NCBI GenBank assembly: GCA_008933995.1 | Contig: WARS01000031.1 | Span: 2,632,001-2,696,000, forward strand | Length of the DNA: 64,000 nt | Source of the DNA: Datnioides undecimradiatus | Lineage: Eukaryota > Chordata > Actinopteri > Lobotiformes > Datnioididae | Direction of reading: 5' to 3' | Program-made: the position numbers and the translations under genes | In this document: positions 173-43,904 of the stretch, piece after piece | How the letters are laid out: the number at the start of each line of letters is the position of its first letter | Numbering within the stretch: position 1 is the stretch's first letter | The notes under the pieces: model-generated | What the model saw: the letters and a program-made list of their open reading frames with translations, nothing else | Told to the model about the DNA's origin: nothing | Database searches by the model: none

Positions 173-3100
173 CTTGAGTATCGTTGCTTTGCCTCCTTTT
201 GTGAGTTTCTTCAGGTTTTCTGCGACTTCAGCCTTTGAGGGCTTTTTGTTCTCCCCTGTTGTGCTGGCCTCTTTAAGTTTCTGTCTCTTTTCTTTCTCCT
301 TGATCTTTAGGCGCTTCACTGTCTTCTTGCGGCGTCTCTCACGCTTCTTATCCGTTGACGTCTTCTCCGTATCACCCACAATATCTCCTGCTTTGTTCTT
401 CTCCTTTGGTTAGAGGAGAGTAAAATTAGACATGCTGTGTAACTAAATATACCAGGATAAAAATATATGTTTGAGGATGCATTGATGACAAACCTTGACT
501 TCCTCTGGTGCAAGCAGTGTAGCATCACTAACACTGACTGGAGCCACCTCCTCCATTGTGATGGATGGCAGGTTAGACACCACTTTGACCTCAGGAACAT
601 GCTGTGGACAGTCAAGGGCAACATGAATCTAATGGCTTTATACCCTTTACAGTACATTGATATGTACATGCTCTATTTTTACTATTTTTATTTTTATTTT
701 TACAAACAGCATGTTTTGGGGTTATGGTATTTTATACATTATCTATTACATTTTAAAAATGTTTTATCCATAACAATCATAGGTTAAGCTTAATCACTAG
801 CCAGAGGTAGATCCATAGAAACAAACCCACACAGCAGGTTTTTGTTAATAAGTCTTGTTTGGTGGTTGCCAAAAAAGTAACTTGTACATTTTTCAAAATT
901 AGTCAATCTAAATAATTTAAGCATATTTGGTAAACATCAGTCAGAGCTGGGAAGCCAAACTTACTGGTTTAGGTGTAAAGTGGAAGTTGGAGAGAGCGTC
1001 CAACTTTAGGAAGAGTGTGTCCATAAGTTTTTGAATTTCTGCATGAGCTGGGTTCTCCTCCTCCACTGTCTTTTGCTGTAATAGGAAAAAAATTACAAAA
1101 ATGATGCAGCACATGTTCATATCTGTTGGTAGAAGTCTCAAGACTGAGGTCAAACCTGATTCTGCTTGAGGTATTCTTGCTCATAGATTTCTGCTAGACT
1201 CTGCTTGCTCTTCTCATGGTCCAATGTTAGCCTCTTCTTGTACTCAAACACCTCCTCTTTGGGCTTCTCCTTGCGGACCACATCATCAAACGCCTCACAA
1301 AAAAAAACAAAAAAAAAAACACACTGGGTGATAATCAGGTGACGGAAAAGGCTGTCTTCAAACAAACAAGTTATTTTGACTAACCTGGTCTTTAATTCTC
1401 TGCTTGATGATGTCTTCAAGCTGTAATGTGGTTTCCTCTGTTATTACAGGCGCTGAAAGAGCAAAGATAAAACTGTGTTGTCTAATTTGAGATGGCACAT
1501 ACAGAAATTCTTCATTTTAACACTGACATTAGTCAAACAACAGAAATATGACACCGGTGTCACTCACCCATCCTGGACGTCTGGTCAAACTCGACATCTT
1601 CCTCCAGCATGCTGTTCTCCGGTCGGGTCTGTGCTGTCACTTCTCCGGACAGCTGCCAGGGCTTCTCCCCTAGAGCTGCTTTTTCCAGCTCGTTGATCTT
1701 CTCTGACATCTGCAGGTTACAACAACAATAGGACAGAATAAATAATTGTTATTAGCAAGCATTCAGACTATAATTAACACTGCACTCAAACAGCATAGCA
1801 CTCAAACACAAGCATGTTGACATGGGCTTGTTGCTTATTCACTACAGTTTAAACCTGATTACCTTTTCTTGACGTTTCTCAAATGATGACTTTGATTCAG
1901 ACTTTGCTGGAGCTGGACTTTTTCCACCAAATATGTCCTCCATGTCCTCACCCTCGCTGTCCTCATCCCCAGAGAGGTTAAAGGTCACTTTCTTACTAGA
2001 TGCTTTGGACTGACTTCCCTCTTCATCCCTGTCAAGCATTGACACAAACATGCTGAAATCAATCAAGTGTGCGTGCTTCACCCACACATAATGATACACA
2101 TTACATAATTTTTTAATCACACTTACTCATCGTCACCCTCCTCTTCACCATCATAATCATCTTCGTCGTCATCCATTTCTTCTTCACCTTCTTCCTGGCT
2201 TTCAGCCATGCTGTCATCCTCGCCATCTGACTGGTCATCTGCTTGAGCTGGTTCACTATCCACAGCATCAAAGAAGTCCTTGTACTTGAGATTCCTGGAG
2301 CTCTTTGCCTGTCAATATAAATAATAATCCATATATCTGCTGTATTCTGTACCACCAGGACACAATGAAATAGGTATGGGTAAGTGATTAAATACATACA
2401 GTGTTTTTCTTTTGCTTTTTGGTGGAAAGCATCTGATCTAAGTCAAGATCGTCATCCTCATCAGAGGGCAGGTCCTGGAAATAGTCCAGGTCATCTTCGT
2501 TCCCATCCTCCTTTCCCTCTTGCTTGTCCATTTCATCAAGAAACGACTCCATTTCTGACAGTTTGAAGAACTTATCATCAACCTCAGAGGGAACCACCTT
2601 TGTTTTGGTGCCTTTCTTTCCATTCTCCTTTTTCTGTTTCTCTCGCTTCTCCAGAGCATCCACGTCAAAATCTAAATCAGAGTCCTCATCTGTGTAATCC
2701 TCTGCCCCGTCCTCATGCTCCACAGCTATTTTCTTTGACTGTCTGGGTAGATTCTCCTCCTCCTCCTCCTCATCAACATTTTCATCATCAGTCTCTACTT
2801 CTTCCTCCTCCTCCTCCTCCTCCTCCAGCAATGTTAATGTCTTATCTGACAAAACCTTGTCAGTGGCATTTTTAAAGTGTTTCAGTACAGCATTGTTCTG
2901 CAGCTCCAGCTCCTGCCAGATTTGCTCTTCATCAAAGTTTTCCACCACCAGCTGAGCTAACGGGCTGCCTTTATAATCTGCAGGCTCCTGGGCTTTGTGG
3001 AGGTCATATAGGGTCTTAGTGAGAGAGGTGAAGTCTGCTGCTATTTCATCTTGAAGGCTGAAAAGGTGGTAACACACAATTAGTTGAGGTACACTACCAT

Positions 3101-4066
3101 TACAATAGTACCAAGAATTAATGTTGGCAATGGAGATAGTTATAACCAAGGAGACGGATTTGGTATTTTAAAAATTATTTTACAGTCAGTTTCAGTTTTT
3201 CTTGCAAGTTGGCCACCTCAAAAGACAAATTTCCACTACCATCATGAACATTTTATTTAATAAAACAAGATATGTAAGAGTCTAGGGAGATTATAACCAC
3301 TATCTAACTATTTTTAAAAAAAAAAATTGGACTTTGAGAACATATTTTTTTATTGCAGCCGTTGTAACTCCCTTCACTTAAATGCTTTTACTTTGTGGTG
3401 GTTTAGTGTTTCCCTGGTTTAAATCCATTGCAGTACATTTTTCAGTGTGTATAACTTTGACATTACACTGTTAACCGTAGATTATCTATAAGATTTGCGG
3501 TTAATAAATCAAGAATATAACCCCGCATCTACTGCATCTTAAAATACATTTTGCTATTCATTTTCTTCCAGTTACCGTGGATACTTGAACGTTTTGATAT
3601 ATCACAGCAGTTAATTATCTCCAAATAAACCTTGTATCGCAATCACATCGTCTCTATCACATGCAGCATTTGATAGCATTGTAAGTCCCTGATTGGATAA
3701 TACTATATTGCAACTATCTTAGCAACGTTACAGTAACATTGGATGGTTATGGGAAAACAGGATAATAAAAACCAATAGTCACCAAAGCCCTCTAAAAGTA
3801 ACGAAGGGTTGATTGTGACCGAAACTGTTGACGAAACATGGTGCTTTCTCTGTAAATTCATGCAGTTAGCTTAGGCTAACAGTTCGCTAGCATACGCGTC
3901 TTCAAAGATCCGTAAACGACCCCGCAGGAACATCAAACAACCTTTTCAACATCCCAAGCATAAATACCACAAACACTTGCCTCAGAAAGTTTTCTGGCTG
4001 TGCGGTGTTAGCGTTTATTTTCTTAACACACTCCTCCAGCACGCTCAGCACATCTCCACTGGCCAT
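173..4066 (-). CDS. mphosph10: M-phase phosphoprotein 10, U3 snoRNP component; 3' end outside the window
   Basis: Nucleolar protein of the U3 snoRNP / small-subunit processome, needed for early 18S rRNA processing. Ten coding exons read on minus: 3981-4066, 2400-3057, 2127-2308, 1863-2028, 1568-1709, 1385-1452, 1156-1293, 965-1075, 494-601 and 173-403. They total 1890 nt (630 codons) with no frame conflict. The first exon starts [12 protein letters not shown]. The long second exon encodes [33 protein letters not shown] and several Asp/Glu-rich tracts. Later exons carry [77 protein letters not shown] and the basic segment [20 protein letters not shown]. All match vertebrate MPHOSPH10 in order. 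The human protein is 681 residues, so roughly the last 50 (one exon) lie beyond position 1. Intron 1 has a GC donor, not GT. The gene shares a promoter with mcee. Confidence 0.96.
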
Positions 4067-4158: not shown

Positions 4159-5979
4159 ATGGCGTCCGCCGTGCTGAAGGTTGCAGGTTGGTTTGTGTCA
4201 ATGATTATGTAACTGTCAAGCGCATGCGATTTTCTAATGTATTGCGCAGTACCAGCTATCAGTATGGACGTCTTGTGATTAAATGTTGAATATTAGTTGC
4301 GTTAATTGTCTGTCTTAAGGTTACGACAGGAGCATGTCTTGTTGCGGTGTTAGGATACCATGTACGTTTCGTGTTTTGTGTCAAAAAAAGTGATTATATT
4401 TCTTCTATATAAACGTATGCAAAGAAACATAGCTGTATGCAGTTAAATGTGATTCAGTCTTGATATCAGCCCAGTCTTACACTCGCCAAGATGTTTCCGA
4501 AGTGATAAAATTGAACTGTGTTATCGGTCCATAATCTAGTGTTATGCAGCCAAACATTGTTCAAACACTCACAAGTTTATTTTAAAATTTACTGAAAAGT
4601 CAAAAGTTTACATTTGTACGAAATGTCAGGCTGACTTTGGTGAAATGAGTGTAAACTGAAGCACAATACTAGACGTTTTGTTGGACTTGGGACATCTCTA
4701 AAACATCATACAGTTTAACTGAGAAGCTGGAACAGGTAGATGCAGAGTATACTGAACCAAATCAAATCCTAGAGTAAAAGATTTTTTCCAACCTTGAAGT
4801 TACTTGAACCAGAAATAAGTGAAAATGCATAAAAGGTTTTAGTGTTAACTAATCTCACTGTGTTTTAACCTGTGCATTCAGTGGCAGGTCTTTCCAGATG
4901 TTCTCGTCTTACGCTCATGAGGGCACATTCAACGACAGCACCCCTACGTCAGGGTGTTCCTGCATCACTGTGGAAACTTGGGAGGTTGAACCACATTGCC
5001 ATCGCTGTCCCTGACATGGAGAAGGCCACGGCTCTGTATCGGGATGTGCTGGGGGCCACTGTGAGCGACAAGGTCCCTCTGCCCGAGCATGGCGTCTACA
5101 CAGTGTTTGTAGAGCTTGGCAACACCAAGCTGGAGCTGCTCCATCCTCTGGGGGAGAAGAGCCCGATCGCTGGCTTCTTACAGAAGAACAAGTCTGGAGG
5201 GATGCACCACATTTGTATTGAGGTGGGACAGCATTTACAGCTTGCCAACAGTAAATTAGGTATACTCAGTCAATATAATGTAGAATACAGGGTAACCCTT
5301 AGATGAGCTTTGAGAGAACATACTCAAAGCAGGCGTTATATCATGACAGAAGCGGTATAAGTGTAACCAACATTAATGTAGACGCTGTTGCCTTTACTGT
5401 ATGTGTCCAAGTCAACACAAAGCATGCACTATAGACATTTTTTCATATACATGTAAAAGCACAGGTGTTAGTACATTAGTGGTGGCTCTTTTCTATTCAA
5501 CTATCGCTTTGTAAGCTGTGACAGTGAGCTGACATTCACAATAACAGAACCCTGAAACCAAAGTAAATTAAATTTAGTCTTCATTCATTTTAATATTACA
5601 CCTGTGCTTTTCCTACAGTGACATTAATTTTGTTTGATCTGAGATAAATATAGTGATGTCTTTATTAATACTACTAATACTGTATTTTATGGTTGTTGTT
5701 GTTGTTGCGTTGATGTTAAAAGCATATTTTTATCACACTTTTTAAACACTCGCAGTAATAGTCTGTCACTGAGCGTGTGTGTCAAGGGGACCAAAGGGAG
5801 ACAAACATTTTTCTTTTTGGTTGCAGGTTGATGACATTAATGCTGCAATAGTCGACTTGAAAGCGAAGAACATCAGAACTCTATCAGCAGAGCCACGGAT
5901 AGGCGCTCATGGGAAACCAGTCATGTTTCTCCACCCTAAAGACTGTGATGGTGTGCTGGTGGAGCTTGAGGAAGCGTAA
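4159..5979 (+). CDS. mcee: Methylmalonyl-CoA epimerase, mitochondrial
   Basis: Converts (S)- to (R)-methylmalonyl-CoA in the mitochondrial matrix, feeding the B12-dependent mutase in propionate catabolism. Three coding exons: 4159-4186, 4882-5222 and 5827-5979 (522 nt, 173 residues; human 176), the same number as in human. It is a single VOC/glyoxalase-fold protein. An Arg/Ser-rich N-terminus (ASAVLKVAVAGLSRCSRL) of about 35 residues fits a mitochondrial targeting peptide. The metal ligands are in place: His47 (RLNHIAIAVPD), His119 (GGMHHICIE) and Glu169 (GVLVELEEA), a constant offset of 3 from human His50, His122 and Glu172. Other matches are VPLPEHGVYTVFVELGNTK and KIGAHGKP-like RIGAHGKPVMFLHPKDC. 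Exon 1 encodes only nine full codons. A reading frame continuing past 5222 is intron read-through, not coding. Confidence 0.97.
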
Positions 5980-10553: not shown

Positions 10554-10838
10554 CAAATCTCAGCGGTGGGTCTTCTTGTGAGGACGTCGAAAATCTTTCC
10601 AAATGGCTCGCGCGGCTAGTTAGCAACAGTTGTAGCAAGCTAGCAAGCTAAACGCGTTCAGTATAACTTTAATCTAGCTAATGTTTCCAGGTATTTAAAT
10701 TCTGATTTGTTGCTATCGATGGTAGTGCGAGCGATCGAGTGGATTATTCAGAATCAAGGTGTTCGAAGACAGTTGAAAGGTTGCCGTTCAAGCACTGTTG
10801 AAGCAGGTAACCTTCACCGTCCGCTAGCGAATGGATCA
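10554..10838 (-). other. fth1: Ferritin 5' noncoding first exon
   Basis: Inferred exon. The 3' border is a good donor (ATTTG|GTAAGAATAC, GT at 10552-10553). It pairs with the acceptor TTTTTCAG at 9764-9768 just before the coding start, giving a 790 bp intron inside the 5'UTR. The exon contains the IRE. The 5' end is approximate: a TATA-like TTTTATTTG sits at about 10865-10872, so transcription should start near 10835-10840. Confidence 0.75.
10779..10812 (-). promoter_or_regulatory. Iron-responsive element (IRE) hairpin
   Basis: The minus strand reads TTCAACAGTGCTTGAACGG within a larger stem. It has the six-base CAGTGC loop (genome 10792-10797), a five-pair upper stem TTCAA/TTGAA, the bulged C of CTGC below it, and a lower stem closed by GGTTACC/GGCAACC. 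This is nearly the human FTH1 IRE. IRP1/IRP2 bind it when iron is low and block translation. Its place near the predicted cap site is the one required for this block. Confidence 0.95.
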
Positions 10839-13244: not shown

Positions 13245-14915
13245 TTAATCGAACAGGCCGAATCCCATGTCGTCATCGGACTCTTCGGACTCTTCCTTCT
13301 TCTCCTCCTTCTTCTCCTCAGCTGCAAAACAAGAGGTGCTTGATGTCAACCACTGCTATAATCAACATAACTTTGAAAGTAATTTGTACAATTATTGAGT
13401 TCACTTTACTTGAGTATTAAACAAATATGCAAGTTATGACAAACTGTCCCTGTTTGAGACACTAGCAAATGTCCCTTAAATGGAAATGTAGACAGCTTAT
13501 CTACATGACTTCTGACAGGCTACATTTATGTAGATTTGTAATATTTATTTCCATTAAAGACTAACTGCTGAAAACTAAACTGCCTTGGCTGCATGTGATG
13601 TCTTGGCTGCATCATATTGACACACAAGGTGAAGCAAAGGCACTCTCTGCCAAGTGTCACTGATGCTGACAAACAAGGTGCTAAGCTGCAATGCTCACCT
13701 GCAGCAGGGGCTGCGGCTCCGCCTGAGCCAGCAGCTGCAGAGCTGGCAACAGCTACGGCACCGCCTGCTGGCATGCTGGCCAGCTTACTGTAACCTGAGG
13801 AGACACAAGTTGGCAGACATAAAGCTCAAGTGATAACATCAACACTCAGCAGCCAGAAACAAGATAGAAGGTCAATAACGTTAGGTTGTTATCATTATAT
13901 TTAATCTAACAATTTAGTTTGACAGTTTGATGTGGTGTATTTCATATATAGTGTTTTGGCCCATAAGTAAAAACATATGACCTATTTTGCCATTTTAGCC
14001 CAATTCACATTCACACAGATTTCCTCAACCTGCAATCATATGTAGAACCTTGCCTGTTACATAAAACTGTTAATTTGTACTCCAGGTTTATTAGTAAATG
14101 CAATAAGGAAGTACCAATGCAACTATTCACAGCACTGTCACAGTATGAAAACTAAGATGCAGCCAAATTTGTGATTTCATTTTGTGCAGCTTGAACCACA
14201 TAGAAACAAAGCATTCACCCACATGATAGCACTTGAAAAACATATCTTCCTAAGAGCACACATTGAAAATAAATGTGCATTTGCAGAGTACCCTGATCAA
14301 TTCATAAGAAAATAAACACTGAAAAATTCACGTGTTCATGGCTCAAGGCGAATGTAAATCACTGCACTTCAGGACTTTCAACTTAAACTAATGTTAGAAA
14401 ACTACATTTGTTTTTTAAGGCCGTGAGACCATTAATGATGTGTTCATGTTTGAAAGCTTAAGTGGCTTTAATTTCTCAAGAATTTTTTTATTCTTTTAAA
14501 CATTTTTCTGAAAAGGATTTAACACTTTAGTCTCAGTATTAAAATCCCACCTGCTGCAGTAGCAGAGATAAAGGACAAAGGGACCTACCAATTTCCTCAA
14601 AACTAAAATAAAATATCAAAATAAAATCAGCCTGTTGGCGTACTCACCTGTGGCGATCACCTCATTCACATTCTTTCCACTGAGCTCAGAGATGACCTGT
14701 TGAGAGATGTGAGCACAGTTGTGAAGGTCAATCTGCTGGTAGAACTGCTGCTGTCAAAACACTTGAAACAAAAGCAGAAGACTGCTCTGTACCTTCTCCA
14801 GACGAGTGGCATCAGCCTCAATACCAACACTGTCCAGGATCTTCTTGATGTCCTTGGCCTCAGGGTTCTCATTGCCACCCAGGGCAGCGAGCAGGTAAGC
14901 AGCAACGTAACGCAT
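13245..14915 (-). CDS. rplp2: 60S acidic ribosomal protein P2
   Basis: Stalk protein of the large ribosomal subunit; P1/P2 dimers on P0 recruit and activate translational GTPases. Coding exons on minus: 14793-14915, 14648-14696, 13699-13794 and 13245-13321 (345 nt, 114 residues; human 115). The N-terminal dimerisation domain reads MRYVAAYLLAALGGNENPEA, then KDIKKILDSVGIEAD, then VISELSGKNVNEVIATG. An Ala/Gly hinge (PAGGAVAVASSAAAGSGGAA) follows, then the charged tail ending ESDDDMGFGLFD, the conserved factor-binding peptide. IKKILDSVGIEAD separates P2 from P1. The coding ATG is one base inside its exon, and a noncoding leader exon lies near 15.8 kb. Human RPLP2 hosts a snoRNA in an intron; I could not recognise one here. 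Confidence 0.97.
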
Positions 14916-15797
14916 CCTGAAAAAACATGAACCACAAGTGTTCAAAGTGTCAGTACATGTTTTTTTAACGTCAATACACACAAAAAAGGTCTGGCCACCT
15001 TTAACCACATGCTCACAAATGATGCATTACTATAATTCTGATATAAATCTGATTCTACTTAAAGATATTAAATTAAAGTTACGTAATCTTACTTAATTTG
15101 GACGTTAATGCTTCCTGGGACATTAATTGCCATTGTGCATATTTTAAACAAAATGCATTTATATTTACAAAATACTTGGATTCAAATTCCAAGTCTGGCA
15201 GTTAGTGGCTCATCTGATTGAATCAGTAAACAATAAATGTGTTTACTTATAATTTGATTCAAACAGCGAGCAAGTTTCCTTTATACAACAGCTGCAAGTT
15301 GTTCTTTGGCAGAGCTTCCACGCATCGCTGACAGTATGTGTTTAAATTTTTAACACTAAGATGTTTAAAAAACGTGTAATTTTTGAAACAAACAGTTAAG
15401 TTGTGAATTTCTGACACTGAACAGGAAAGATAGCCAGGCATCAAATCTGAACATCTACTGCGTCTGAGAGTTAACAGCTCTGATAGCAAGTATTTGACAG
15501 AATGTCTCTGAAGGGAAAACTAGTTAGATTTTGTCGGATAAAGTGCAAAATGCGACAGAAAACAGTCAAGATTTCTTTTTTTTTTACACCCATGTGGCGG
15601 CATGTTCCTCTGCCCCGTTAGCATTAGCTATGTTAGCCTCCACAGACGTTGTGGCGTTAAAAGGAGATAATGTAGCTTAAGTGCCTCTTTTTGAGTTTGT
15701 TGAGATGCCGGGTTTGGAAGTGCATTCATTTCTTGGTACAGCATGCTTGTTTTGTCGACGAATAATACATTATATTGTACAATAAAAAGACACTCAC

Positions 15798-29183: not shown

Positions 29184-29993
29184 CTATCTCCCTCTTTTAA
29201 TGGTCAATGTGCATACACATGAAGTGTCTATCCTTATAAACCGCCAGCCAATCTTCTTTTTGCTATCCATGGTAAGCGCTCGCACGTAGGACTGGGTTGT
29301 CCTGCATTGGGAATTATAATGCCGCTTGTCTATTCCTCTGCAGCCCTCCTTTGTGTACCCCATGGGGTTGCATTTGGTCTCATAAAAGTATTGCTTCAGT
29401 TGGCCATTGGGGACAGGGACCTTTTCCATGACGGTAACTGTCTGCCCAGACATGTCTATTGCCGTCTTTTTATCCACAGCTGTCACCCACTGGCTAATAC
29501 TGTCACACACACTGAGCTCTCCGCGCCGCGAGGGATCGGAGTGTCGCCGCACCCTCATGGACATATTAGCGGCATCCAGATAGTTTTTGTATTCCTCCAG
29601 AAGAAAGAGCAACGGCGGCTCCAAAGGCACTTGGTTGCTGATCATCACCCGCGAGTCGTACAGGTCGACATCCTTGGTCTCTGTGGTGACCACAGATGAT
29701 GGGCCCCCACCTCCCTGGCTCTTATCAGCCCCCTGTCCCAGCTGTGCCGCCTCTCCCTCCACCTCCAGCAGCTCCTCTATCACCTGCTCAAACGTGTCTG
29801 TGAGTGAGGGCAGTTCCCCGCGCTGGCCTGGCCCACCACCACTCTGTGGAGTCCCATGGCCTCGTGCGGCCGTCGCAGCAGCGCCCAAGTAGCCTTCCGT
29901 CCGATGGCCCCGCATGCCCGGGGCGTCTCTCAGGGGCGCAGCTCTCATGCAACTGAAGTATGAAATAACCATAGTAAGGAACAGGATGGTCAT
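29184..29993 (-). CDS. bdnf: Brain-derived neurotrophic factor, prepro-form
   Basis: Secreted neurotrophin, ligand of TrkB and p75NTR. The 269-residue prepro-protein lies in a single exon, as in all vertebrates. A signal peptide begins [20 protein letters not shown]. The prodomain contains a Gly/Gln-rich stretch ([16 protein letters not shown] and [12 protein letters not shown]), longer than in mammals, and the N-glycosylation sequon Asn143-Met-Ser. The RVRR furin site at 147-150 releases a 119-residue mature domain ([20 protein letters not shown] to CTLTIKRGR). All six cystine-knot cysteines are present (SVCDS, TKCNP, EGCRG, SQCRT, SCVC). The exon begins at 30014 after a CTCCAG acceptor, and TTCCACCAGGTTAGAAGAGTG precedes the ATG in frame. 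An upstream exon ending in ATG would therefore add MFHQVRRV. I chose the canonical ATG at 29993. Confidence 0.98.
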
Positions 29994-30014
29994 CACTCTT
30001 CTAACCTGGTGGAA
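29994..30014 (-). other. bdnf: bdnf coding exon, 5' part open in frame
   Basis: 21 nt between the splice acceptor (CAG at 30015-30017) and the main ATG read FHQVRRV in frame with bdnf and have no stop. The same seven residues stand at this place in mammals, where they join N-terminal extensions supplied by alternative 5' exons. Confidence 0.85.
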
Positions 30015-33000
30015 CTGGAGGGGAGAGAGACAAACAGAAAACAAGAGGGAAGGAGGGGGGAGAGAAAGAGAGCAAGACAGTTAGTCAAAGAGCATTTTCA
30101 ATGAAGTTAGCTTATTCTTGATCCATAATGCACCATATAAGCCTTTCCTCCTATTTACACCCACTACTATTTCTTTGCAAGCCAAAGAGGGAGCCAGTAG
30201 CTGTGGAAGAATCACAAAATGTTTTGGTTTTTTTTTGATTTTTTTGTTTTTTTTATAAACTGCTATTGGCGCTGTGTCATCAGTGTTGTCAAATTGTTTG
30301 GAAACTGTAATCACTCTGTTCCTATGTGAGGTCTGGCTTAGATTTTCATTTGTTGGCAGCAACACACAAAAGCTGTGCTGAGCATCAGAGGGGCCGCTTA
30401 TTACAAAAGATAAGATTGCACAAATAGCTGTCACATCATCTTTACAGGCTTGCTATCATTTATGAGTTGTTTTGGTTTCTTTTTTTACTGGTGTGTTAAA
30501 CTGCACGGTTCATTTCCAGAGCGTGTGAGGATGGGTAGTTTTATAATGTTCAAACCTGTCATTCATCCCCACTCGCTGCATGAACCATTGTGTTGTCTCG
30601 TCAGAGTTGAAATCTCACACGTTCCCCGCATTTTTTAAACTTCATTGAGGACATGATGGAGTTAACTGTGTAGACTCCTGAACTGCTCAATTCTGCTAGA
30701 TATACTAATAATAAAACTGACAGGTGGATGCTTTTTGGACTCCAACCACCTGAGGGTCAATTGTGACGTGGCAAAATTGAGAGACGCTCTGTGTTTGTTG
30801 ACATGAGGATATGGTTTTGTTTGTCTTGTTTGTTTGAGGAGCTTATGTATTATCTTTTAACTATGACATTACCCCGGGAACAAAATCACCATTATCCTCT
30901 TCCCGCTCAGGGAAACTCCAACATGGACCGCACTTACTGACTGACTGAGTGTTGTGTTTGTGTCAGCTCTGACAAACACCGCTGCTGCAGTACTACTATT
31001 ATTTTTTGTTTTTTTTAAAACTGGTCCGTGCTGTAAGACAGGTTTGATCCTAAACCTTATAGTCATGAACGGGAATCGGTAGCTTTGTTGAGGGACTCTG
31101 TTTGGTTTTTGGCAGGTGGATGGCGGAGAGAACACTGCAGGATGAAGTAACAGGACGTCATGAGGAAAGTGAATGACAGTAAGATGTGTCATCCTCCCTG
31201 CACTGTAAAAGTACCAATCTCGAGGCTCCGGAGAGCAACTCACAAGATAAGCAAAGCACTGCTGAGAGGAGGGGGGATGAAAAAAGAGCCAGGTGTAGCA
31301 AAAAATACTGTACATACATCCTTGAGCACATATGTATCCCTTACCTTTGAGAAGCTCTAAGAGTCACAGCAAATCAATGAATTGGTGGACATCCAACAGC
31401 CCGGCATATAAAAGCAACCATAATGAAAAGAAAATCTAGATCTTACTTTCCACAGGGGCTCATTTAAAAATAGCCTGGCCAAGGCTTTGACTGCACTCTG
31501 CATGTCCCAACTTGATGCAGGAAAACATGGCGAGCAAACACACTCCTGCCTCCACTCAGAATGGACACGAGGACCTTTACAGTAGGGAGGAGCGAAACCC
31601 CACCTTAAAAGCATTTGTTTCATTCTTAATTGGTATCTGGGGCCATGGCTGCAATTAACCAACACCACGGTGACTGCCATAGAGATATCTCATCTAAAAA
31701 TAGATGTGCTGGGAGTCTCACAGTCTCTATTCAGAATATCACATCCTTCTTCTTAATGAGCCACTCATTCCCCGAGCTCAGTGACGTGCTCCTCCAGAGT
31801 GTGTGAGTGTGTGTGTTAGAGGGGGGGCATGGGGAGGGGCTGGCTTGTGTGTGTTTGCAGGGGAGATGGGGGTATTTTTCCTCTCACCAATTAAAACAAC
31901 AATAAGGACAAAGCCAAGAATAAGGACCTAATTACCCATTTTTTATTAAATATTGTTAAGGAAGGCATATTTAATGTGCAAAATCAAGCTTATTAACCCC
32001 TGAATGTTGCTCAGGTTTTGGTTCCAAAGAGCAGGAATTTTCTCTGAGGCTTCCCAGCACAGAGAATCACGTAGGTTTTTACGGGATTGAGGCCAGTCAC
32101 GAGCTTTATGTGTAGGATGCATTTAGGCTGATATTATTATCAGCATCGCGCTCAAATGGTTCCACTTCCACATGAAGGAAATGAAGGCAGAGGGCTGATT
32201 ACTGTTAGGCGTCAAACTTCATGCTGGAAATGGTGCAGACGAAGAGTGCTGCATCTTCCGTAACAAACCACAGGGGTAATATTGCAGTAGCAGGGGGTGG
32301 AGAGAGTGCCAGCGTCATTTCGCAGCATAACAACCACAGATGACGTCTCTTCCAGGTCTCCATAGGGGAGAGAATGGAGGGGAGGAGGTTGCTGGGGGTA
32401 ATGCCACTCAACAGTGTGCAATTGCATGCCATTCCCCCGGGTATCCTCACACCGGGAACAACAAATGATTTTATTTCTATCTCTCTGATTTCCTGTTTCC
32501 ATCAGGACAATCAATATGGCTTATGCTCTCAATCAACATCCTGTTAAAATGCGATAAAGCCAATGAATCATTTAATTGCTGTGGGACTGGCGGAGAATCT
32601 CTGGCTTATATCTACTAGAGGCTAAATGTGACAACTGATTGGTTTGCTCTGGTTGCATCCAGTGAAGGAACACTTTATGTGCGCTGCTGGGTTTTGCAGT
32701 TAATAAAAAAGTGGCTTGCGAGTTAACACAACGAGCATGAATAATAAAGCAAGAGAGCAACTGCATATGGAGGAATGTCTGGTGTAAACTGTACTTTTTC
32801 TGTGCAGCCCCTGGAGCAAGCTGTGTGATGGTTTGTTTATGAATATAACTAACACAGAAAGGTGTTTGAGCATCTTTTGTCCGTTTGATTGTTAAAAATA
32901 TGGCCAAATGCAGGTACATCTCCTAATCCAGCTGTGTCATGGCCATACAAGTATCGACCATAAACGTAAATCACTTACTGTAGAGTGCAGGAAGACAAAG

Positions 33001-35400: not shown

Positions 35401-35650
35401 CTTTCACTGCCCAGTCGTAAAACAGACCATTCAACAGGACAGCAGTGTCATCTGGGATGTTTTGGACAACTCCCTGAGTAATTTACTTTAAGCGATATTT
35501 TCCCTCTCTGTACTCTCCCGACAAGCTTCAGGATATCTCTTCAGCTTTGGAGCAAATAGATTAAATTATTGATGGTGGAAATTGCATGGATGAGGTAATG
35601 CACTCCCATGGCTGCACGGCTCCTTTGGAGATCGTCTGAAACTGAAGTTG
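35401..35650 (-). other. bdnf: bdnf alternative 5' exon IV (activity-dependent leader)
   Basis: Noncoding exon. The donor GCAGTGAAAG|GTATGTG (GT at 35399-35400) resembles the mammalian exon IV end, GACTGAAAAG. The core on minus (about 35551-35600) reads ATTACCTCATC then CATGCAATTTCCACCATCAA then TAATTTAATC. Recalled mouse/human exon IV has ATTACCTCCGC, CATGCAATTTCCACTATCAA, TAATTTAACT at the same place. The TTTGCT that follows is shared too. The 5' limit is uncertain, and the CpG-rich stretch up to about 35.8 kb should be promoter IV. In mammals this leader drives calcium/CREB/MeCP2-regulated transcription. Confidence 0.8.
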
Positions 35651-35800
35651 TCGCATGCTGAAACGCCGCAGCGGCAGCGGCAGCACGGGATGAGAGACCT
35701 CTGGAGCTGAAATGAGGAGCCTCTTTGCAACTACAGTAACTTTACTACACAATGACGCTGCAACATGTGACCTGCCGCTGGCTGGCTGGTCGCCACCAAA
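35651..35800 (-). promoter_or_regulatory. Candidate bdnf promoter IV
   Basis: CpG-rich segment directly upstream of the exon IV core. It includes a GCGTCA half-CRE on minus (about 35754-35759) beside an ACATGT E-box-like element. There is no TATA box. It is assigned by position relative to exon IV; I could not align the mammalian CaRE sites with confidence. Confidence 0.4.
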
Positions 35801-39240: not shown

Positions 39241-39837
39241 ATGTAGCCTACATTTCCATAATGATTAAGATGATTAATTTTCGCTCTAAATATATCGTGA
39301 CGCCCGCCCAGCAATGAGTCGAGATTTCCGCCATCTATAGCCCGAAATAATCAATAGCCTATTTTTAATTTACATCAGATCGTCGTCTTGGATACCTTAA
39401 CAAGTTATTACATTTCATGAATGAAAGCGTTGTGGCAAAGTGGGCAAGCGCAATCCGAAATGTTTATTATTATTATTATTATTAAAAAGCCATATCTATG
39501 GTTTATATTGAAAAAAAATGCACGTCCTTAATTGAAAACCAGATTTCGCCGAATCCTTTTAGCCCCCAAAGTGCAAGAATTGATCGCAAGGGAAAGAAAA
39601 AACGACACACAAAGGCCAACATTTACATTATGAAAAAGCAGCAAAGACATTAGCTGTATGAAACAATCTAGGATATTATTAAGGATAATCCTTATTTCTG
39701 CAGAATGCATGTATTTATTTGGATTTTCTCGTTAAATAAATAGGCCTACCGAAAGAATTTCATCTGATTTTTGCAATGAAACCTACCATCAGGTTTGTTA
39801 TTGACGCCCACCCCAACTCTGCAGAGCTGAGAGTGCA

Positions 39838-42214: not shown

Positions 42215-42278
42215 CTTTACAAGGGCTGACAACCACTATGTGCGTGGTTAGATCTCCGCGACCAAGACTTGCATGTCC
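42215..42278 (-). other. bdnf: Candidate bdnf 5' exon III
   Basis: A strong donor, CCCTTGTAAAG|GTAAGAGC (GT at 42213-42214), lies about 95 bp downstream of a TATA-like CTATAAGCCC on minus (42301-42310). With a usual 30 bp spacing this predicts a leader exon of about 60 nt. It falls between exon II and exon IV, the place of mammalian exon III. No sequence match to mammalian exon III was recalled, so identity rests on order and signals. Confidence 0.45.
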
Positions 42279-42303
42279 CAAAGTTTAACGCAGTGTGGGG
42301 GGG

Positions 42304-42309
42304 CTTATA
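42304..42309 (-). promoter_or_regulatory. TATA-like box of candidate bdnf promoter III
   Basis: TATAAG on minus, in a local CpG-bearing context about 30 bp upstream of the predicted exon III start. Confidence 0.35.
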
Positions 42310-42525
42310 GGTACCGAGAATGTGGTGTGCAAAAGACGAGACGACCTGACATTTCAACTTTCACAATGCCCTACAAAAACACATCTTAAAGCACGAGCTC
42401 TTTTAACGGCAAGCGCTTTTCTTTTTCCTCTTTTAATGACAAATTTGCCTCTTTTTTTTTTTGCTCTTTAGAATCCCGTTTTATTTTCCGATTACAGACC
42501 ACAGGCTCCCTCAGAATAAGCTTAC

Positions 42526-42765: not shown

Positions 42766-43419
42766 TATCCCCCCCCCCCCCTCTCCTTTGCCAAACCAGT
42801 CCTGTTAATATTTGATCACATGTTGGTCGGACATTTCCTTCCAGATAACAGCACCTATATCACAAACGCCGGTTCAATTCAGTGTATAGTCGCCTCAAAA
42901 AAAAAAACAAAACAGGAAGAAAAAGACCCGCTCTCACGCCAAATTACAACTGGCACCGCTGATACTGATACCTCATTGTTCCTAATGTCATGCTTTATGG
43001 AAAGTGTCACAGGTAAGTGGCACATGTTGCTTGCTGTTTTAAGAAAAAAAAAACATGGACACCGCACAAAAAGGAACATGCATACATGCATAAAATATAA
43101 AGCCCTCACTGCCAACACACACAGCCCTCCAAGACAGTCCTCAGCCTACATCACATCCACACATTGCGCACAGACACAATGTAATATTTCCTTACCTCTC
43201 TCACTGTACCGGCATATCCTGAGCGAGAAATGCCACACAATCTTTTTTCACACAAGCTTTGTCAACATCAGCCTCATCAGACATTGGGTCTCGATACTGA
43301 GTTTCTCAAGTAGCCACTGAGTCCAACCCTTCCAGCAATGCGTTGCCAGACTAAATAGCAAGCACGACTATTTACTGGTAATCATCCTTTATATGCCGTG
43401 TGTTTCCATTGCTACTTAC

Positions 43420-43872
43420 CATTTTCCCCTACGCTGTCCTGGAGATAGAAGTGTCTTAATATCCACTCACTCCAACAGATGCTGGTAGGTAATGTGTCTT
43501 GTTTGAAGTCATCATATGAGAACTTCTGCTGTGCTCAGTAGATCGCCCACCACTTCGCTGACTTATGAATCTAATAACCCTTTGCAATATCGGCGTGCTT
43601 AAACTCTCTTAGGCAACACCTTGGTGGCTCTACAGTAAAGACAAATATCAACAAGCCCGGGTTGTCAGAAAAGCTTGTACATATACGTAACACCCTCGCC
43701 CGGACAACGCCATTAGGGGTCTTACGTGATTGAAATAAGCGACGGCAATCCAAGTTTATGGGGGTACTAGTTCCTGACTGCTCGCTCGCTCACTGCCTCA
43801 AATCTTTGAATCCGCATCGGGCAACAATGGCAGACACATAAAACTTATCCAAAAAAAACAACATATCCATAT
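43420..43872 (-). other. bdnf: Candidate bdnf 5' exon I, ending in ATG
   Basis: The donor GGGGAAAATG|GTAAGTAGC has its GT at 43418-43419, so the exon's last codon is ATG (43420-43422) with A at -3. Joined to the coding exon (TTC CAC CAG GTT AGA AGA GTG ATG) it gives MFHQVRRVM, the +8-residue preproBDNF start that mammalian exon I transcripts use. An in-frame TAG lies three codons upstream, so the extension is exactly eight residues. A strong TATATAA at 43898-43904 predicts the cap near 43868-43872, making the exon about 450 nt, similar to mammalian exon I. Confidence 0.6.
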
Positions 43873-43897: not shown

Positions 43898-43904
43898 TTA
43901 TATA
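43898..43904 (-). promoter_or_regulatory. TATA box of candidate bdnf promoter I
   Basis: TATATAA on minus within GAGTCTATATAACAC, with the SRE-like CCAAAGAGGG just upstream. It lies about 480 bp before the predicted exon I donor. Confidence 0.45.

Follow-up and report, generated by a model that had tools for sequence, protein, structure and literature searches.

Orthology of a fish bdnf first exon with mammalian exon I, including its terminal in-frame start codon

Exon I of mammalian BDNF reportedly carries an alternative start codon, as Timmusk in 1993 and Koppel in 2015 are said to have described. In mouse, rat and human, the exon I ATG gives a preproBDNF that is eight residues longer (PMC1878509), and the available parts of two further papers likewise describe an in-frame ATG in mammalian exon I that leads to a longer preproBDNF (PMC2568880, PMC10135494). 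According to an excerpt of PMC7891933, which cites Koppel 2015, translation in mammals starts more efficiently at the exon I codon than at the canonical one in exon IX.

The bdnf gene has also been cloned from the sea bass, Dicentrarchus labrax (Tognoli et al., 2010; PMC2829032). In the portion of that report available to us, each of five alternative first exons is joined by splicing to one and the same coding exon. One of them, exon 1-beta, is 282 nt long, ends in GGAAAATGgtaagtag (its Table 4) and shares 75% identity with mammalian exon 1. It contains an in-frame ATG that extends preproBDNF. A 1-beta/2 RT-PCR product was obtained from sea bass brain and none from liver, kidney or muscle. SignalP 3.0 scored the 1-beta N-terminus poorly as a signal peptide and called it a putative signal anchor (PMC2829032).

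In the fish DNA analyzed here, a stretch of 64,000 nucleotides that we call the window, the bdnf gene lies on the minus strand, as do all of its features given below. The coding exon (29187-30014) is taken here from its splice acceptor up to, and excluding, the stop codon. Its acceptor sequence, ...CCCTCCAG, has its last base at 30015. The exon then opens with TTCCACCAG at 30014; its first 21 nt read FHQVRRV when exon I or exon 1b is used. The canonical preproBDNF ORF within it (29187-29993) encodes 269 amino acids. Searches with the coding exon match the Pfam NGF family (E = 3.3e-46), and the two best matches among solved structures are BDNF chains (best E = 4.5e-73, covering residues 151-269), such that the exon holds a prepro form together with a mature neurotrophin of the BDNF type.

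At the end of exon I, the minus strand reads ...TAG GGG AAA ATG/GTAAGTAG, where the slash marks the splice site; the ATG occupies 43422-43420, and 43419 is the first base of the donor GT. The first-pass annotation had given the exon end as AAAATG/GTAAGT at this place, which is correct. The donor GTAAGTAG (43412-43419) is an exact match to the sea bass junction, and consensus donor and acceptor sites are both present for splicing of exon I to the coding exon. Joining the two at 30014 gives MFHQVRRVM followed by BDNF, and the same frame is closed by a TAG three codons upstream of the ATG, just as had been claimed. The start codon (43420-43422) therefore occupies the very end of exon I, is in frame, would add MFHQVRRV and has its counterpart in the in-frame ATG of sea bass 1-beta. 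The exon, orthologous to sea bass 1-beta, is placed at 43420-43701; its 3′ end is exact, and its 5′ end was set solely from the 282-nt length of sea bass 1-beta. No sign of special RNA structure was seen in the last 181 nt of the exon, where 122 of 200 shuffled sequences folded at least as stably (z-score 0.29). A 30-nt pattern from the exon, present in the window, had no match in viral or genome contig collections, which is expected because the exon is vertebrate sequence.

For comparison with mammals, we used a 118-nt rodent exon I query joined from two printed sources (PMC12615161 and PMC4381300). It aligns over its whole length with the last 117 nt of the fish exon plus TTC, with 99 of 120 alignment columns identical and a local score of 74, compared to a maximum of 16 when the rodent sequence was Markov-shuffled 1,000 times and a maximum of 17 elsewhere in the window (400-nt steps). 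The similarity thus lies in the 3′ part of the exon, and the orthology to mammalian exon I that had been proposed is borne out. The printed spliced rodent junction, ...CACAATG followed by TTC, has the same arrangement as the fish junction: in mammals as in this fish, exon I ends in an in-frame ATG that is spliced, or in the fish would be spliced, straight to the TTC of the coding exon. Fish and mammalian exon I also have in common an eight-residue longer preproBDNF (predicted in the fish), a conserved exon body and an upstream ORF. The sequence, splice sites, reading frame and orthology of the exon are established by this analysis.

The resemblance to sea bass is closer still at the junction, where the 16 nt of GGAAAATGgtaagtag are found letter for letter in the window. 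Of 15 sea bass primers and oligos placed without gaps, seven match exactly, four have one mismatch and three have two to four; the remaining one has no match within five mismatches and matches once a one-base gap is allowed. In particular, SP2 and SP3 match exactly across the end of exon I, and SP1 is also exact. Further primers are nearly so: SP4 aligns over 27 of 29 bases with no mismatch, SP5 agrees at all but one of its 30 bases and SP6_B needs a one-base gap. The window is close to sea bass, yet the primer mismatches indicate that it probably comes from another species. Loss of the terminal ATG in close relatives, which would have spoken against the first-pass annotation, is not seen in sea bass, the one close relative checked, and the ATG with its eight-residue extension is common to this fish, sea bass (PMC2829032) and rodents (PMC1878509). 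What does not stand is the novelty of such a start codon in a fish. Because the available part of the 2010 sea bass report (PMC2829032) already gives the identical junction and an in-frame ATG, the finding is a correct rediscovery of something known in a fish.

Exon I is also the first in a cluster of alternative 5′ exons, as 1-beta is the first of five upstream exons in sea bass. All five sea bass upstream donors occur in the window in the same order, at 43420 (1-beta), 42215 (1a), 39787 (1b), 35401 (1c) and 32332 (1d), such that the minus strand carries 1-beta, 1a, 1b, 1c, 1d and then the coding exon. Four of the five donors match exactly and 1c has one mismatch. Exon 1a (42215-42521) has an exact 3′ end, supported by the sea bass donor, and a start given only as far as the exactly matched primer 1a_FW_new; two other primers match less well (1a_Rev_new with three mismatches, ex1a_rev with four). 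Exon 1c (35401-35665) was likewise placed only as far as its matched primer, with 1c_Rev_new exact and 1c_FW_new carrying one mismatch. Exon 1b (39787-39831), for which the sea bass donor and primer 1bFW are exact, ends in ATG/GTAGG. Its last three bases, ending at 39787, are thus an ATG, and splicing to the coding exon translates to the same MFHQVRRVM, which means that this start codon could come from either of two first exons. The sea bass report likewise mentions an in-frame ATG in 1b (PMC2829032).

Exon 1d (32332-32508), with its start again given only to the matched primer, has an exact donor and 1dRev and one mismatch in 1dFW. If the sea bass donor is used, no stop separates its in-frame ATGs from the coding exon. 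That donor, CTGTGGTT/gttatgct at 32332, seems to fit the usual consensus poorly. GT dinucleotides also begin at 32337 and 32334, which lie three and six bases further 5′ in the exon, so that splicing at any of these sites would leave the frame intact. Sea bass larvae gave no detectable 1d/2 transcript, and in adult brain it took a second round of PCR to reveal it (PMC2829032).

The 5′ end of exon I is less closely defined. The first-pass annotation had drawn on a TATATAA at 43898-43904, about 480 bp upstream of the ATG, in arguing that the alternative N-terminus is kept. It is the only TATAWA on the minus strand of the 880 nt examined, and at least one TATAWA occurs in 29% of 500 Markov shuffles of the same 880 nt. 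The sea bass genome-walking primer SP6_A, which lies over this sequence, aligns to the window with two gaps, one of five bases that takes out the TATA and one of two bases: the primer reads GGGAGT and then TAACAC, whereas the window carries CTATA in the larger gap. Provided that the primer is true to the sea bass genome, the TATA would not be kept even among close fish. We therefore reject TATATAA as a conserved promoter element, since it is interrupted in the sea bass primer and is not rare by chance. The exon start at 43872 had been guessed from the TATA by itself, and the sea bass length of 282 nt points instead to about 43701. In the available part of PMC2568880, human exon I starts at -647 and -428 from the exon end, in contrast to the 282 nt of the sea bass exon (PMC2829032). 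The candidate transcription starts in the window are accordingly about 43870 from the TATA, which is not far from the human -428 start, and 43701 from the sea bass length. The exon I ATG would be preceded by eight upstream ATGs with a transcription start at 43872 and by three with a start at about 43701, and these could prevent ribosomes from reaching it.

One feature of the conserved exon body is an upstream ORF of 19 codons (43456-43515), MMTSNKTHYLPASVGVSGY followed by a stop, which ends 33 nt before the exon I ATG. Its first 15 residues and the position of its stop are common to the rodent: MMTSNKTHYLPASVG is identical in the fish and rodent ORFs, and the stop falls at the same codon. Between fish and rat, two of the 45 sites in the first 15 codons differ, both silently, where about 25% of possible changes would be silent; the last four codons contain five changes, and all four residues are altered. 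A mouse fragment available in print spans only part of the ORF; it adds one silent change in the first 15 codons and shows one silent mouse-rat change at codon 17. Conservation of the ORF core is not significantly different from that of the preceding 21 nt (p = 0.076); it differs from all other columns at p = 0.003, with a boundary chosen after the data had been seen. Coding selection on the upstream ORF is suggested by these comparisons and goes no further than that because the surrounding sequence is also well conserved. The frames differ, in that the rodent ORF is out of frame with the exon I ATG, whereas the fish ORF is in frame with it and is closed by TAA, with a TAG further on.

For human BDNF, predicted upstream ORFs have been listed in 14 of 17 transcripts (PMC12974206); in the accessible portion of that report, the exon I transcript is not singled out and the term ‘zebrafish’ is absent. 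The newly identified rodent exons, which are others than exon I, hold no upstream ORFs (PMC1878509). We put forward tentatively, as a possibility that we consider rather unlikely, that the conserved ORF beginning MMTSNKTHYLPASVG is translated and sets the frequency with which ribosomes arrive at the exon I ATG or, by reinitiation, at the canonical ATG, in fish and mammals alike. If ribosomes do translate it, fewer of them would initiate at the exon I ATG, or initiation would be shifted elsewhere. Fish and mammals would in that case share one way of choosing the start codon and of regulating how much BDNF is made from exon I transcripts, and the conserved ORF could help explain translational tuning of activity-induced exon I transcripts.

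How should the terminal ATG itself be understood? One alternative is a chance occurrence in unrelated sequence, and the bare motif does little to oppose it: on both strands of the window, ATG followed by a GTRAG donor occurs five times, compared to 19 for NAG/GTRAG. The junction stands above chance because of its homology to rodent exon I rather than because of this motif. The rodent alignment scores 74 where shuffles and the rest of the window reach 16 and 17, and sea bass has the identical junction (PMC2829032). The alignments rule out a chance ATG in unrelated sequence, to which we give a vanishingly small probability.

A different alternative accepts the orthology and holds that the exon has been conserved because of regulatory functions at the DNA or RNA level, such as those of promoter I elements or the upstream ORF, with the terminal ATG rarely used and the canonical ATG used in most cases. 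An ATG at the exon end puts a T at position -2 of the donor, which is off the usual consensus, yet it is kept in this fish, in sea bass and in the printed rodent junction, which speaks against such a reading. Conservation that extends well beyond the ATG, as seen in the 99 identical columns of the 120-column rodent alignment, is as a regulatory role would predict, and so are the upstream ATGs that precede the exon I ATG and the poor SignalP score of the extension in sea bass (PMC2829032). Reports that mammals use the exon I codon efficiently (PMC7891933, citing Koppel 2015) argue the other way, as do the seven codons FHQVRRV, which stay open in this fish. On balance, we regard a purely regulatory role as improbable. 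We are instead highly confident that the exon is the teleost orthologue of BDNF exon I, ending in an in-frame ATG, with transcripts that would be able to start a MFHQVRRV-extended preproBDNF.

The proposed effect of the start codon follows the mammalian case. Since the last three bases of exon I are an ATG in the BDNF frame, translation could begin there, and exon I transcripts can therefore make the extended preproBDNF. Eight residues, MFHQVRRV, would be added ahead of the signal peptide, and the mature factor would be unchanged. The likely effect, as in mammals, would be on translation efficiency and on entry of the precursor into the secretory pathway rather than on receptor binding. The exon I ATG lies in the context gggaaaATGt (A at -3, T at +4) and the canonical ATG in agagtgATGa (G at -3, A at +4). 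The extension places two arginines in front of the hydrophobic core, a position at which the canonical form lacks arginine, and raises the best 11-residue hydropathy window from 2.32 to 2.75. Because SignalP 3.0 scored the sea bass N-terminus poorly (PMC2829032), the longer form might be secreted poorly. We infer that exon I and its start codon are used in this fish.

Taken together, the comparisons support an exon I start codon and a longer BDNF precursor as common to ray-finned fish and mammals, and the start codon is therefore likely older than their split. Laboratory fish could thus be used to ask what the longer precursor does.

The gene neighborhood beside bdnf is marked by ORFs at 2388-3149 (minus strand), 4872-5306 (plus strand) and 14754-15026 (minus strand), which we take to resemble mphosph10, mcee and rplp2, respectively. 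An iron response element (Rfam IRE_I, 53.3 bits) lies at 10778-10813 on the minus strand, about 1 kb upstream of an exon that presumably belongs to a ferritin heavy chain gene, given its resemblance; upstream of ferritin heavy chain is the ordinary place for such an element.
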